From an uncultured bacterium (GTDB lineage Bacteria > Spirochaetota > Leptospiria > Leptospirales > Leptonemataceae): a DNA stretch of 64,000 nt. Shown one piece after another: positions 3,373-11,284 of this stretch. The position numbers and the translations under genes were made by a program. The notes below the pieces were generated by a model, which made no database searches, had not been told where the DNA came from, and saw nothing but the letters and a program-made list of their open reading frames with translations. The number at the start of each line of letters is the position of its first letter. Positions within the stretch are counted from its first letter, which is position 1. The DNA is taken from NCBI GenBank assembly GCA_937928085.1, contig CALFVU010000006.1, positions 186,001 through 250,000 on the forward strand. The letters run 5' to 3'.

Positions 3373-5082
3373 TTATCTCCAATCATATCTTCCAAATTTT
3401 ATACTTGGATGCTTTTGAAAATTTACCGATTCTTTACTTTGCAGTTTTGGTATTTCTATAAAAAATTTAGTTCCTTTTTCATTCGATTCAAAATAAACTT
3501 TACCATTATGATTTTCTATAATGTTACGAACGATTCCTAAACCTAACCCTGTTCCTTCTCCTTGGGCTTTTGTTGTAAAGAAAGGATCCCATATCATTTC
3601 TTGAATTTCTTTAGGTATTCCAGGACCATTATCGATCACCTGAATTTGAACTGTATTTTCATTGAATTCTATAGTTTTTATGATCACAGTGGGGTCCAAG
3701 ATTTGGCTACTCATCAATGCCTGATAAGAATTCATAATTAAATTAATCAAAACTTGTTGTATTTGATTTGCATCGCATTCTAAAGTATTTCTATAACCAA
3801 GATCTGTAATGATTTTTATTTTATTTTTAGTGGTGTGGCTAATCAGTCCTACAGTTTCCTCAATGATTTCTGAAAGATTTGCTTTTAAAAATTCATGTTT
3901 AGAACTTCTTGAATAACTACGTAAACTTTGTACAAGTTTTGAAATACTTTTTGATGATTGAATAATACGAATTATGTTTTCGTACGTAAAAGCGATATTT
4001 TCTAAAATCTCTAAAGATATGCGTTTTTCTTGTTCATTACATTGGTAGTAATATTGGATGATTTGATGAAAAAGATTATTTTCTTGTTTTAATGAGCAAG
4101 TATTTCCTTTATATACTTTAAATTGAATTAAAAACTGAATTAGCTTTTCGTCGAAAGGAATTTGCTTTTCTTGAAAATATTGTTTTAGTTCGCTTTTTAG
4201 TTTAAAAGTTTTTTTAGAATCTATCATTTCCATTAAAGGAAGATGATACGAAAATAAAAATAAAATATTTAGAAATTGTGGAGATAAATTTTCGAATTCT
4301 TTTTTGATTAAAAAAATTTCCAATAATGTATCGAAATACTTTAATATGTTTGAAGAACAAGCCAAAATTACACTTATAGGTGTATTAAGTTCATGAGCTA
4401 CACCAGCGACCATTGTACCAAGTGTAGCCATTTTTTCTTGTTGCACTAAATTTTTTTGAGCTTTCTCTAATTCTGCTGTTCTTTCTTTTACTTTTTCCTC
4501 TAAATTTTTTAGTAAATTTTCAAGACGTGCATAAAGTATTGAATTCGACAAAGCAATGATCAAAAAATATCGAAATTCTTCTATAGTAAAATATTCAGAA
4601 ACACTTATGTGTTTATTCGTATGGGCATAAATAAATCCAAGAATAGATTCGTTTAATACTAAGGGTATCAATATGTTTGCGTTATTTTCTTCGAATATCT
4701 GTTTTACAACCTTCTTATGTTCTTGATTTCTAAGAATTTCTAAATTTCTTTTTAAAAAAATAATGTCATACTCTGAAAGAATAAGGATGATAGGATCAAA
4801 AATCTGTATGGTTTTTGAGGTTTGATTGGTAAAATCACTAAATTGTCCTATGGATTCGTTCCATAAATAAAAACCGATAGAATTTGTTTGTAAAAATTCT
4901 TTAAGAAAATGAATCGAAGTTTCTACAATGTCTTTAGTTTTTCTAAATCGAATAATAGTTCTTCTAAAAACATCAATTTTTCTTTTTCCATAAAAAAGTC
5001 TTCTATTATCCTTCTTTGATTGTATATTTTTTTTTCTAAATAGCCTTAAAAAAGGCTTGATAATCAAAAACCATTTTTTCAT
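3373..5082 (-). CDS. sensor histidine kinase, cytoplasmic, with N-terminal GAF-like region
   Basis: A 569-residue protein. Residues about 30-190 look like a GAF-type sensor region and have no obvious transmembrane helix. A coiled coil follows (KVKERTAELEKAQKNLVQQEK), then a HisKA H-box (GVAHELNTPISV) with the phosphoacceptor His. About 160 residues of unusual helical insertion separate the H-box from SLRSYSR. The catalytic ATPase domain is intact: N-box LINLIMNSYQAL, G1 DNGPGIP, F-box DPFFTTK, G2 GTGLGLGIV. A response regulator is not adjacent, so the partner is unknown. It is convergent with the Kazal-like gene (2 bases between stops) and divergent from rsgA. Confidence 0.85.
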   Translation of the reverse strand: MKKWFLIIKPFLRLFRKKNIQSKKDNRRLFYGKRKIDVFRRTIIRFRKTKDIVETSIHFLKEFLQTNSIGFYLWNESIGQFSDFTNQTSKTIQIFDPIILILSEYDIIFLKRNLEILRNQEHKKVVKQIFEENNANILIPLVLNESILGFIYAHTNKHISVSEYFTIEEFRYFLIIALSNSILYARLENLLKNLEEKVKERTAELEKAQKNLVQQEKMATLGTMVAGVAHELNTPISVILACSSNILKYFDTLLEIFLIKKEFENLSPQFLNILFLFSYHLPLMEMIDSKKTFKLKSELKQYFQEKQIPFDEKLIQFLIQFKVYKGNTCSLKQENNLFHQIIQYYYQCNEQEKRISLEILENIAFTYENIIRIIQSSKSISKLVQSLRSYSRSSKHEFLKANLSEIIEETVGLISHTTKNKIKIITDLGYRNTLECDANQIQQVLINLIMNSYQALMSSQILDPTVIIKTIEFNENTVQIQVIDNGPGIPKEIQEMIWDPFFTTKAQGEGTGLGLGIVRNIIENHNGKVYFESNEKGTKFFIEIPKLQSKESVNFQKHPSIKFGRYDWR

Positions 5083-5132: not shown

Positions 5133-6203
5133 ATGATTTCTCGAAAAAAACATAGAATTTCGGAAGTTTGCGGCAACCTATGCTATTTGCAATCGGAAAC
5201 TTCTAAAAAGAGATTAGCTGTCCTAAAAGGAAAAATGAGAATTATGGAAAACGTTCATATTTCTAAAATCCCATTTAGAAATCCCGTATGTGTGGGGGAT
5301 TATGTTATTGTTCAAGAGATTGAGGAACCAAATAAAAATTCTTATTTGTCGAATCAGGCTGTGATTGAAGAAGTTTTGCCGCGTAATAAAACTTTAATTC
5401 GTTCTACACCTACAGAAATCCATCTTTTAGGATCAAATATAGATTTTGCAGTCTGTATAGTCAGTTTAGTAGAACCAGAAATTCGAACAGGATTTATCGA
5501 CAGATTTTTAATTGCTTGTTTTTCTGAAAATATTACTCCTATACTTTTTTTTACGAAATGTGATCTATTAAAAAAAGAAAAAGAAAATCATAAGGAATAT
5601 GTTTCTTATGGTATTTATTATCAAAAAATTCTTCCATTTGTTTTTTGGGATAATTTATTACAAGTTAAGAATTACAAAGATTTTTTATATTTTTATAATG
5701 AATCAAAAATTTTCGGGTTTGAAGACTTTAAAAACACAATAAAAGAAGGAACTCTCATTACTGTGGGTCAGTCTGGAACAGGAAAGTCTACATTCATTAA
5801 CTTAATTTTAGGAAGTGCTGTTCAGAAAGTAAATTCTGTTAGTAGTGCTACAAAAAAAGGAAAGCACACAACTACTAGTTCTATTTTGTTTTCTGTATCG
5901 GATCAGTTTTCGATTATTGATACACCGGGAGTGCGTGAATGGGGACTATATCATTTAACAGAAAAAAAAATTTATGAAAGCTATCCCGAATTTTCTGGGC
6001 TAGAAAATAAATGTAAATTTAAAAATTGTTCTCATTTGCCTAAAATAGATGGTTGTGCAATCCAGAAAGCAATTCGAGAAGGTATATTACCAGAATGGAG
6101 AAAAGAAAATCTTGAGTCTATCATCAAAACTTTGGAATATTACGAAAAAGTTAGGTACGGAGATTATAAAAAACCAACTGGAAAATTTTATAATCGTATT
6201 TGA
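5133..6203 (+). CDS. rsgA: ribosome small-subunit-dependent GTPase A (RsgA)
   Basis: A 356-residue circularly permuted GTPase that helps the 30S subunit mature late in assembly. The N-terminal part is an OB-fold. G4 (FTKCDLL) comes before G1 (GQSGTGKST) and G3 (DTPGVREWG), the hallmark permuted order. The C-terminal zinc site CKFKNCSHLPKIDGC is present. NKTLIRSTPTE is the conserved region linking the OB-fold to the GTPase domain. The length is normal for the family. The ATG follows a T-rich leader with no clear Shine-Dalgarno. It is probably the first gene of a run with the two 7TM sensor genes. Confidence 0.95.
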   Translation: MISRKKHRISEVCGNLCYLQSETSKKRLAVLKGKMRIMENVHISKIPFRNPVCVGDYVIVQEIEEPNKNSYLSNQAVIEEVLPRNKTLIRSTPTEIHLLGSNIDFAVCIVSLVEPEIRTGFIDRFLIACFSENITPILFFTKCDLLKKEKENHKEYVSYGIYYQKILPFVFWDNLLQVKNYKDFLYFYNESKIFGFEDFKNTIKEGTLITVGQSGTGKSTFINLILGSAVQKVNSVSSATKKGKHTTTSSILFSVSDQFSIIDTPGVREWGLYHLTEKKIYESYPEFSGLENKCKFKNCSHLPKIDGCAIQKAIREGILPEWRKENLESIIKTLEYYEKVRYGDYKKPTGKFYNRI

Positions 6204-6222: not shown

Positions 6223-8049
6223 ATGAAATTGATTCAATGGTTTGCAATAATCATTAGTTTTTTTTTAATACATATCTTATATTCTAAGGATTGTGAATTT
6301 CAGATACAAAACAATCAAAATGTTGTTTTGTTAAACGGTAAATGGAATTTTTTTAGAGGTGGAGGAAGTGTAGCGGCCAATCCTAATCTTGATCTTTCTT
6401 CTTGGAAAGAAATTTATGTTCCTTTTCGCTGGCATTCTATACCAGAATTAAGACAATATAAAGGAGAAATCTGGATACGTTGTAATTTAATTTTTACTTT
6501 TGTTCCGAATGAAGCTTATTTAGATCTTGGTTTTTTAAAAGAAATTGATGAGGTCTATTGGAATGGAGAAAAAATTGGTGGAATGGGAAGTTTTGAAAAA
6601 AGAATTCCCGATTTTTCTGAAAGGAGATGGTATTCGATTCCTTTAAAAAATATTTCAGAAAAAAATACTTTAGCTATTCGAATTTATGGCTCATTTTGGA
6701 ATGCAGGAGTGCCAGATGTTCCAAAAATTCATTTTTCTTCTAATTTAATAAAACAGAAACATCAGTTTGAATCCTTAGCTTATGCTTTTTGCTTATCATA
6801 TACTTTTTTTTCTATTTTATTTATTTTTTTTGGACTTTTTACTCCTCAGAGAAAAATCAATATTTATTTTTCTATTTTTGTGATCTTGTTATCTTTTTAT
6901 TATGCAATTTTATGGGGAAAGCGATATGATTTTTTTGAAAATTATATTATTTCTTATATAATTGAACTATTGTGTCTAATTCCTCTTCCTTATATTTTTT
7001 ATTTATTTATAAAAGAATGGATAGAAATTCAGCAAAATTATAGAATCATTCAGATCTCAACCATATCTTTGATGATTTCCGCAATTGTAGGATATTTTGT
7101 TCCGTATACCATACGAACCGCATATTTACATATTGTTACCTATATTAATTTAATAAATCTTTTTCTTATCTTATTTTTAGTTTTAAAAATTTTGATTCTT
7201 AATAAAAAGAAAAGAGAATATCTTTATTTTGGACTTATCAGTATAATTCCTTTTATCCTTAACGATGCGTTGATTGCTTTAGAGATCATTCATACACCCA
7301 GATTGTTTATTTTTTCTTTTTCTATTTTTATGATTTCATATGGTTTACATCTTTCTGAAAAAGCTTTACTTTTAAAACAAGAATCAGAAGAAAAAAGTTT
7401 AGAATTGCGAAAATTGGAAAAACAAAAATTAAATGTAATCTATAATATTTCTAATGAATTTCATTCTATTTTCGAAGAATTAAGAGAATCCTTAGCTTTA
7501 AAAAAAAATTATGAGTCCTCTATTGTAAAATTAGAGTTCTTAATAGAAAACATAAAAACTTTAGAAAATTTAGAAAATCATAGATATATTTTACAACCGG
7601 CTAAAATAAACCTATATGAAGAAATTCTTTTTGTAACCGAAAAGGTGCTAAAAGCAACAAAGCAAAAAAAATCAAGAATCAAAATTAATGAGTATAATTC
7701 TCAAAAGTTTTTTTGGACTGATCCTTTTTTATTTCGAATGATTTTATATAATCTTATCGAAAACGCTTTACTATATTCCACTTCTATAGTGGAAATCAAT
7801 ATTACTAACGAAAACGAAACAATTTTAATTAAAATTAGAGATGAAGGTACAGGAATTACTAAAGAATTACAAAATTCAATGTTTCTTAAATATATTCGAG
7901 GGGATCATAAGATACCCGGTAGTGGTATTGGACTGACTTTAGTAAAAGAAGGACTATTGCTTTTGTCCGGACATATTCAATTTGAATCAAAACCTGATTT
8001 TTTTACAGAGTTTATGATTGTGTTACCACCATTAAAGGAAGTTTTATGA
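6223..8049 (+). CDS. 7TM receptor with jelly-roll sensor domain and kinase-like ATPase domain
   Basis: About 608 residues from the ATG at 6223; a longer reading from 6049 would overlap rsgA and has no signal peptide at its start. Order of parts: signal peptide; an exported galactose-binding-like jelly roll (about residues 25-190, including NGKWNFFRGG and VPFRWHSIPEL); seven or so hydrophobic helices (about 200-380); a coiled coil; and a HATPase domain with LIENALLYS, DEGTGITKE and GSGIGLTLV. The H-box position reads ISNEFHSIF, with Asn411 where the phosphoacceptor His is expected, so autophosphorylation is doubtful. It overlaps the next gene by 4 bases. Confidence 0.8.
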   Translation: MKLIQWFAIIISFFLIHILYSKDCEFQIQNNQNVVLLNGKWNFFRGGGSVAANPNLDLSSWKEIYVPFRWHSIPELRQYKGEIWIRCNLIFTFVPNEAYLDLGFLKEIDEVYWNGEKIGGMGSFEKRIPDFSERRWYSIPLKNISEKNTLAIRIYGSFWNAGVPDVPKIHFSSNLIKQKHQFESLAYAFCLSYTFFSILFIFFGLFTPQRKINIYFSIFVILLSFYYAILWGKRYDFFENYIISYIIELLCLIPLPYIFYLFIKEWIEIQQNYRIIQISTISLMISAIVGYFVPYTIRTAYLHIVTYINLINLFLILFLVLKILILNKKKREYLYFGLISIIPFILNDALIALEIIHTPRLFIFSFSIFMISYGLHLSEKALLLKQESEEKSLELRKLEKQKLNVIYNISNEFHSIFEELRESLALKKNYESSIVKLEFLIENIKTLENLENHRYILQPAKINLYEEILFVTEKVLKATKQKKSRIKINEYNSQKFFWTDPFLFRMILYNLIENALLYSTSIVEINITNENETILIKIRDEGTGITKELQNSMFLKYIRGDHKIPGSGIGLTLVKEGLLLLSGHIQFESKPDFFTEFMIVLPPLKEVL

Positions 8050-9985: not shown

Positions 9986-11284
9986 ATGGATTTTATTAGT
10001 TATGAGTATAATCAGAAAAAATTAAGAATTCCATTAATTGAGGGTACAGATCAACAAAAGTTTGCAGATATTAATTATTTATTTCAAGAGACTGGTTTAA
10101 TTACTTATGATTCTTCCCTTAATAACACTGCAATTGCAAAAAGTAAAATTTCGTATATTGATTCAAAAAACGGGAAATTATTTTATCGAGGATATAATGT
10201 AGAAGAATTAGTTGAGAAATCCACGTTTGTAGAAACTTCTTTTCTTTTAATTTATGGGCATTTACCAGCTCAAAATGAGTTAAAAAATTTTTCCAATGAA
10301 CTAAGTAAACATTCTATGATTCATGAATCCGTAAGATTATTTTTTGATGCTTTTCCCGGAAGTGCACATCCCCTTGCTATTTTAGCTACTTTAGTTATTG
10401 CTTTATCTGCTTATTATCCTTCATCATTCGAAGAAATGATGAAAAAAGGGATAGATATTCGAACGAGGTTGTTAGCAAAAGTTCGCACTTTAGCAGCTTG
10501 GTCTTACAAAAAAAGTATAGGACAACCTATTATATATCCAAGGGATGAACTTCCTTATTGTACGAATTTTTTAAATATGATGTTTGCTACTCCTGCAGAA
10601 CCTTACAAAGTAGATCCTATTGATGATAAAGTGTTAAATCAGATTTTAATTTTATATGCAGATCACGAAATGAATGCCACCACAACAACAGTACGAGTAG
10701 TTGCTAGTGGTAGAGCGAATCTATTTGCTTGTATTAATGCTGGTATATGTTCTTTATGGGGATCTCGTGAATCCGATGCAAATGTACCACCGATTGTTAT
10801 GTTAAGAGATATGATCAATAATAACATTACACCAGAAGATTATTTTAAAGATTTTATTAGTGGGAAAAAACAACTAAAACTAAATGGTTTTGGGCATAAT
10901 GCTTACGAAAAAGAAGATCCGAGAGCTAAAATGAGTAGAAAAATCTTTAAAGAATACTACCAAAAAAAAATTCAAATTGAGCCTTCTTATTTGCAGGATC
11001 CGATCTTAAATAAAGCTCTGGAAGTGGAAGAGTATGTTATGAATCATCCTGTTTTAAAAGAAATGAATTTTTATCCAAATTTGGAATTTTATTCCGCTCT
11101 AGTATTTAAACTATTAGGGATACCTCCAGAAATGAATAATGTGATTCGCTCTATTGGAAAACTACCGGGATGGTTAGCTCATTGGACAGAACAAAGAGAA
11201 AATCCAGATAGAAAAGTGTATAGACCAAAGCAAATTTATACTGGAGAATTATATAAAACTTATGTTCCTTTACAAGAGAGATAG
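9986..11284 (+). CDS. citrate synthase-like protein lacking canonical catalytic residues
   Basis: A 432-residue protein collinear with type II citrate synthases from end to end: YDSSLNNTA and YIDSKNGKLFYRGY near the N-terminus, ADHEMNATTTTVR, GFGHNAYEKEDPRA, and LPGWLAHW near the C-terminus. His304 of GFGH is retained. The GPAHGGAN loop that carries a catalytic His reads GSRESDAN, with Glu262 at that position. The catalytic Asp of N-V-D-F-Y-S is Glu367 (NLEFYS), and the Arg after the conserved His is Asn. The frame is intact over the full length, so it is not a decayed gene. It may be a non-canonical synthase or a regulatory relative; I withhold the name gltA. Confidence 0.85.
   Translation: MDFISYEYNQKKLRIPLIEGTDQQKFADINYLFQETGLITYDSSLNNTAIAKSKISYIDSKNGKLFYRGYNVEELVEKSTFVETSFLLIYGHLPAQNELKNFSNELSKHSMIHESVRLFFDAFPGSAHPLAILATLVIALSAYYPSSFEEMMKKGIDIRTRLLAKVRTLAAWSYKKSIGQPIIYPRDELPYCTNFLNMMFATPAEPYKVDPIDDKVLNQILILYADHEMNATTTTVRVVASGRANLFACINAGICSLWGSRESDANVPPIVMLRDMINNNITPEDYFKDFISGKKQLKLNGFGHNAYEKEDPRAKMSRKIFKEYYQKKIQIEPSYLQDPILNKALEVEEYVMNHPVLKEMNFYPNLEFYSALVFKLLGIPPEMNNVIRSIGKLPGWLAHWTEQRENPDRKVYRPKQIYTGELYKTYVPLQER

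Follow-up and report, generated by a model that had tools for sequence, protein, structure and literature searches.

Gene neighbourhood of the altered citrate synthase homologue

The window (viz. the whole stretch of 64,000 nucleotides of spirochaete DNA that was analysed) contains a gene for a citrate synthase homologue, referred to here as P0001 in this genome and as pseudoCS for the group of its orthologues, which is listed together with its neighbours in Table 1. The reading frame of this gene is open throughout, as a first-pass annotation had indicated, and both an ATG start and a stop codon are present. The Citrate_synt domain (PF00285) covers residues 45–415 of the protein with a score of 346 bits against a gathering score of 27, which places it within the citrate synthase superfamily. 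However, P0001 scored below every NCBIfam cut-off for citrate synthases (393.5 vs. 485.15 for TIGR01798 and 434.6 vs. 505 for PRK05614), and the models for 2-methylcitrate synthase and citryl-CoA lyase, which belong to the same superfamily, gave weaker matches. Its best solved relative in a fold comparison was 7e8n (42% identity). A predicted model of the protein (pLDDT 84) matches solved citrate synthases; the active-site region and domain orientation of this model are ill-defined (rmsd of about 13 A to the solved forms) and hence no geometry was used from it.

Table 1. Genes and features near the altered citrate synthase gene, with the basis for their identification
Feature	Position	Strand	Basis or remark
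Divergent histidine kinase	3373..5082	-	Pfam HATPase_c; motif alignment in 9 genomes; synteny
rsgA, ribosome-associated GTPase	5133..6203	+	Pfam RsgA_GTPase; synteny
Protein A, 7TMR-DISM-like sensor	6223..8049	+	Pfam HATPase_c; sub-threshold 7TMR-DISM_7TM; 15-genome motif alignment
Protein B, 637 aa	8046..9959	+	15-genome motif alignment; low-confidence model; linkage
Pseudo-citrate synthase P0001, 432 aa	9986..11284	+	Pfam Citrate_synt; 26-orthologue residue tables; tree
Codon of Glu262, which replaces the catalytic His	10769..10771	+	GSRESDAN instead of GPxHGGAN

The gene is the last in a same-strand run rsgA-A-B-pseudoCS, of which the first member, rsgA, probably has a housekeeping function. 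For protein A, the ATG at 6223 was taken as the start; its longest open reading frame begins at 6049, within rsgA. The genes for A and B overlap by 4 bp, and B ends 26 bp upstream of pseudoCS. No terminator-like site was found between B and pseudoCS, in a scan for promoters and terminators that performed no better than on shuffled sequences. In protein A the N, G1, and G2 boxes of the HATPase_c domain are intact and Asn occupies the position of the phospho-acceptor His; across the 15 genomes aligned, this position is Asn, Ser, Arg, Gln, or Ala in 14 and His only in G022. In that genome, protein A (L154:6345-8270) reads SHEF at this site, which could be a phospho-acceptor His, and this suggests that its loss from the other genomes came later. 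For protein B, an N-terminal beta-sandwich, about seven transmembrane helices and a degenerate dimerisation/GHKL module are predicted; neither a phospho-acceptor His nor ATP-binding/kinase boxes are found in any of the 15 genomes, and no match to Pfam was obtained. The secondary structure in its model is similar in layout to that of A; the confidence of this model (mean pLDDT 50) is too low for a fold search. A profile comparison of the two proteins gave a weak N-terminal match only (13% probability). It is possible that A and B form a membrane pseudokinase heterodimer. The divergently transcribed histidine kinase on the other side of rsgA has an intact phospho-acceptor box (AHELNTP) and intact ATP-binding boxes and is syntenic with rsgA-A-B in the family of the window (f1), which makes it a candidate for an active partner.

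The gene order kinase | rsgA-A-B-pseudoCS recurs widely within f1, and A/B are adjacent or nearly adjacent to pseudoCS in most genera. In genus g2 and in some genomes of g3, B and pseudoCS lie a few kb apart, with a small insertion between them in the former and several genes in the latter. In G007, B and pseudoCS are separated by an inserted protein of 187 aa (L088:9070-9633) for which Pfam gave no match, and in G005 a DUF1554 protein (L158:5762-6505) lies directly upstream of pseudoCS, the block of A, B, rsgA and kinase being about 7 kb away. The A/B pair is present in both families that carry pseudoCS; in the second of these (f2) it is still a tandem pair, situated at another locus and unlinked to pseudoCS. 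The neighbours of pseudoCS in f2 comprise an APH-type phosphotransferase, a UvrD helicase, an epimerase, a cytochrome c, a STAS protein and thioredoxin/TPR proteins, among which no common pathway theme was found. Protein B was not found in G010 (81% complete) and G013 (91% complete), although both of them have pseudoCS, and no match to it was obtained in the four genomes tested from sister families that do not have pseudoCS.

Replaced and retained residues in P0001 and its orthologues

Unless stated for P0001 itself, residue positions are those of the mature GltA of E. coli, to which the window protein was aligned. In this alignment Glu262, His304, Asn305, and Glu367 of P0001 correspond to His264, His305, Arg306, and Asp362, respectively, and the catalytic triad His264/His305/Asp362 thus reads Glu/His/Glu in the window protein. 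The first-pass annotation had described a Glu in place of the catalytic His, an Asn in place of the Arg that follows the conserved His, and an intact His304, and all of these are borne out here. Further replacements that it had not listed are Arg388 for Phe383, Lys392 for Arg387, Tyr for His226, and Arg261 beside Glu262 (i.e., an Arg263 next to Glu264), whereas His227, His304, Arg313, and Arg413 of P0001 are kept. GPxHGGAN aligns to GSRESDAN without any gaps, and hence a displacement of the catalytic His to a nearby position was rejected.

A comparison of 26 full-length orthologues with 35 canonical long-type enzymes indicates which of these changes are characteristic of the group. Position 264 is Glu in all 26 orthologues and His in all 35 canonical enzymes, and the catalytic His was also present in all of the short-type homologues sampled. 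Position 263 is Arg in 25 orthologues and Lys in one; position 383, which is Phe in 35/35 canonical enzymes, is Arg in 19 and Gln in seven; and Arg387, likewise invariant in the canonical set, is replaced by Lys in 25/26. Arg306 is absent from 24 orthologues, and His226 is replaced by Tyr in all of them, a residue that is also common here among short-type enzymes. On the other hand, His229, Arg314, Arg407, Asn360, Tyr308, and Trp391 are unchanged in 26/26. His305 is retained in all but two orthologues, viz. those of G010 (Asn) and G024 (Gln); these losses of the second catalytic His (L016 and L028, respectively) fall in two different families. At the allosteric NADH site, His110, Tyr145, and Lys167 are found in every orthologue and Arg163 in 24 of them. 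The oxaloacetate residues of the citrate synthase family are His229, Arg314, Arg387, and Arg407, of which Arg407 comes from the neighbouring subunit, completing the active site of its neighbour. Of 119 columns that are invariant in the canonical enzymes, 60 are kept in the altered copies, 38 are relaxed and four have switched to another fixed residue; His264 and Arg387 are two of the switched columns, and many of the relaxed ones fall within 262–268, 300–310, and 379–383.

The replacement of the catalytic Asp, which had also been claimed, holds for P0001 (Glu367) but not as a feature of the clade, since position 362 is Asp in 15 orthologues and Glu in 11. This change was tried and rejected as a key marker of the group. 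Homologues L045-L056, which are from Bathyarchaeota and other organisms, have both catalytic His residues and yet carry Glu at the Asp362 position (NIEFYAA). As the change is limited to 11/26 orthologues and also occurs in such archaeal-type proteins beside both His residues, it was not by itself counted as inactivating.

The functional importance of several replaced positions is known from other work. In citrate synthase H264 and D362 are named as active or catalytic residues, Phe383 touches the acetyl group, and single substitutions at 383 reduce kcat by 93–97%, the loss for F383A being 97% (PMC11167817). In the pig enzyme, His274 and Asp375, the equivalents of His264 and Asp362, form hydrogen bonds with acetyl-CoA (PMC8455617). 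The pattern of changed and kept positions therefore indicates that the acetyl-CoA side of the active site has been lost and that the dicarboxylate side has been kept. As judged from its sequence, P0001 is a member of the citrate synthase superfamily that falls short, in its catalytic residues as well as in its scores, of what is expected for a functional citrate synthase.

Distribution and evolutionary origin of the altered copy

It had been surmised that a true citrate synthase would be present elsewhere in the genome, and one was found. The source genome (2.3 Mb, 21 contigs, 92% complete) contains, on another contig (G000:C12), a canonical citrate synthase of 428 aa in which all three motifs are intact (GPLHGGAN, GFGHRVY, and YPNVDFYS) and which is 44% identical to P0001. 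The altered copy is present in at least 27 spirochaete genomes, nearly always together with the normal enzyme. In a search of 61 relatives, orthologues were detected in 21/22 genomes of f1 and in 8/8 of f2, families of the same order, one of which contains Leptonema illini; the sole f1 genome where no orthologue was found (G011) is 67% complete. Nearly all carriers also have another match, at the level of the canonical enzyme, which was checked residue by residue in 20 cases, the exceptions being G012, G021, and G028 (75–77% complete). The exact pattern DHE...WGx[R/S]E, searched in the DNA of 393 genomes of the phylum, was found in 26 genomes, all from f1 or f2, and in none outside these families. 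As divergent copies escape this pattern (the orthologues of G015 and G022 do not match it), its absence elsewhere in this sample signifies only the absence of the exact pattern.

In a maximum likelihood tree (LG+C20) based upon 69 sequences, the altered copies formed a single clade (support 100/100, stem length 0.82) within the long (GltA) type of enzymes. This clade divides by host family and falls among the spirochaete sequences of the GltA tree, and a horizontal origin is thus unsupported. The sister of the clade is uncertain, the copy from G048 at this position having a long branch. For close pairs, dN/dS was about 0.02–0.10 for the altered copies and 0.01–0.04 for the canonical ones, values that are approximate, synonymous sites being close to saturation. 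Between f1 and f2, the altered copies are on average 48% identical and the GltA sequences 69%. These sequence comparisons indicate that the altered copy is an old paralogue, which evolves faster but is constrained, and that a whole monophyletic clade, itself under purifying selection, has replaced an essential catalytic residue, which is the mark of a pseudoenzyme. Chance, a frameshift or an assembly error was rejected as the source of the changes, as 26 full-length orthologues carry the same ones.

Possible function of the altered copy

The explanation that we favour, to which we give about an even chance, is that pseudoCS is a conserved pseudoenzyme that would have lost acetyl-CoA chemistry, kept its dicarboxylate pocket and become a metabolite-sensing regulator acting through a partner. 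According to this explanation, pseudoCS is a paralogue of long standing of the hexameric citrate synthase of Gram-negative bacteria and was kept beside the normal GltA. Positioning and polarisation of acetyl-CoA depend upon His264, Phe383, the GGAN loop, and the GFGHRV loop with Arg306, which are replaced or relaxed, whereas the residues that hold carboxylates (His229, Arg314, Arg407, Lys for Arg387, and usually His305) are kept; the protein would no longer make citrate and would still bind a di- or tricarboxylate, perhaps also NADH. A conformational change induced by the ligand may then be read by a partner. In f1 the likeliest partner would be the co-oriented 7TM pseudokinase pair A/B upstream, which would connect it to the active histidine kinase encoded divergently; alternatively, the partner may be GltA itself, in mixed oligomers. 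The output would be the passing of Krebs-cycle status to a signalling system. The parts of this reading differ in strength. The loss of citrate synthase activity is very probable, and a non-catalytic ligand-binding regulatory role, whether through A/B or through GltA, is fairly likely; A/B as the readout in f1 is put forward with less confidence. A signalling role of the protein is what we infer from these features taken together, and its most specific form, in which pseudoCS would sense the state of the Krebs cycle in the cytoplasm for a membrane signalling unit made up of two 7TM pseudokinases and the divergent active kinase, is an unlikely proposal.

The first-pass annotation had offered two alternatives, another reaction or a role in regulation. 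The residue pattern and the linkage favour the regulatory or ligand-binding option, because the acetyl-CoA site is lost while the oxaloacetate pocket and the NADH-site residues are kept, and because the second His is lost in two lineages and the gene is linked to sensor-kinase-like proteins; a different reaction is retained as the other option. An enzyme of this sort would have a new active site formed by Glu264, Arg263, and Arg or Gln383; its substrate would resemble oxaloacetate or citrate, and it would either use a different donor or be a lyase or hydrolase. This seems to us rather improbable, at somewhat better than one chance in five. An invariant Glu264, Arg or Lys at 263 and a restriction of 383 to Arg or Gln are typical of functional constraint, the substrate pocket is kept, and NCBIfam matches show that superfamily members with other acyl-CoA donors, as well as lyases, exist. 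Indeed, His305, Asp/Glu362, and the invariant Glu264 could together make the pocket a new active site, and the invariance of Glu264 and near-invariance of Arg263 may suit a catalytic as well as a structural role. However, the CoA-binding loops (262–268 and 300–310) are relaxed and not refixed, position 362 alternates between Asp and Glu, and the neighbouring genes specify signalling or housekeeping proteins and no pathway; the replacement of His305 in G010 and G024 also argues against a new enzyme that depends upon this residue, at least in those two. The linkage to A/B is itself not universal, in view of the separate locus in f2 and the two genomes where B was not found, and in f1 it is partly general synteny, as rsgA and the kinase are conserved there too.

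About equally doubtful, at one chance in five, is that pseudoCS is a non-catalytic subunit of GltA, which would enter mixed dimers or hexamers, donate Arg407 and tune the activity or NADH sensitivity of the enzyme. It has the same full-length hexameric-type architecture with an N-terminal domain, Arg407 is invariant, the NADH-site residues are kept, and a canonical GltA is present in the carriers; further, there is a known case in Vibrio, where the binding of a protein, VcdP, tunes the activity of GltA (PMC8672173). Nevertheless, the identity to the GltA of the same genome is only 44%, the gene is not located near gltA, and the linkage to A/B in f1 would be left unexplained. It is much less probable that pseudoCS is an active isoenzyme which tolerates these changes: most of the fold is preserved, as are His304 and Asp/Glu367, and Asp to Glu is known in homologues with both His residues, but the residues at the His264, Phe383, and Arg387 positions are all replaced, the losses of kcat caused by changes at 383 alone are severe (PMC11167817), and the score is under every NCBIfam cut-off for citrate synthases. 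Least of all is a decaying pseudogene or an assembly artefact to be expected, for which only the faster divergence relative to GltA speaks; the frame is open in every full-length orthologue of both families, dN/dS is low and the replacement residues are invariant, and this conservation already refutes it.

The pseudoenzyme reading may be compared with known systems. Hexameric NADH-regulated GltA (TIGR01798/PRK05614), which is the "type II" enzyme in the literature on Gram-negative enzymology, has the fold, the architecture, the oxaloacetate residues His229, Arg314, and Arg407 and the NADH-site residues in common with pseudoCS; pseudoCS differs from it in that His264, Phe383, Arg387, Arg306, and the GGAN loop are replaced and its scores lie below the family cut-offs. 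The CitA protein of Caulobacter crescentus is a moonlighting cell-cycle regulator whose role is independent of catalysis, and its paralogue CitC did not complement E. coli gltA (PMC7083601). Like pseudoCS, CitA is a citrate synthase homologue that exists beside another functional copy and, as proposed for pseudoCS, regulates without needing catalysis; however, CitA is an active enzyme, whereas in pseudoCS the catalytic set has been lost naturally and the loss is fixed over two families. Proteins A and B, which are kinase-like and have no usable phospho-acceptor, resemble in this the non-catalytic partners among histidine kinases, i.e. pseudokinases such as a variant of ChrS from Corynebacterium glutamicum (PMC9491836), and differ from it in their 7TMR-DISM type, tandem arrangement, and phylum.

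Citrate synthase is a textbook enzyme, and a clade in which a non-catalytic form is naturally fixed appears to be undescribed in the open-access papers searched: these contained no report of such a pseudoenzyme, and nothing specific was found in them on 7TMR-DISM proteins with citrate synthase or on the citrate synthases of Leptonema or Turneriella. If pseudoCS binds oxaloacetate, citrate or NADH without turnover, it would be a clear example of a Krebs-cycle enzyme that has become a sensor, and a naturally occurring parallel to the catalysis-independent role of Caulobacter CitA. Should the membrane-unit proposal also be true, a dead metabolic enzyme, rather than a dedicated ligand domain, would feed metabolite status into two-component signalling. 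The sensor idea is testable, as an orthologue is present in Leptonema illini, a type strain available in culture. In addition, genes of this kind are likely to be labelled simply gltA in annotations, by which metabolic models would be misled.
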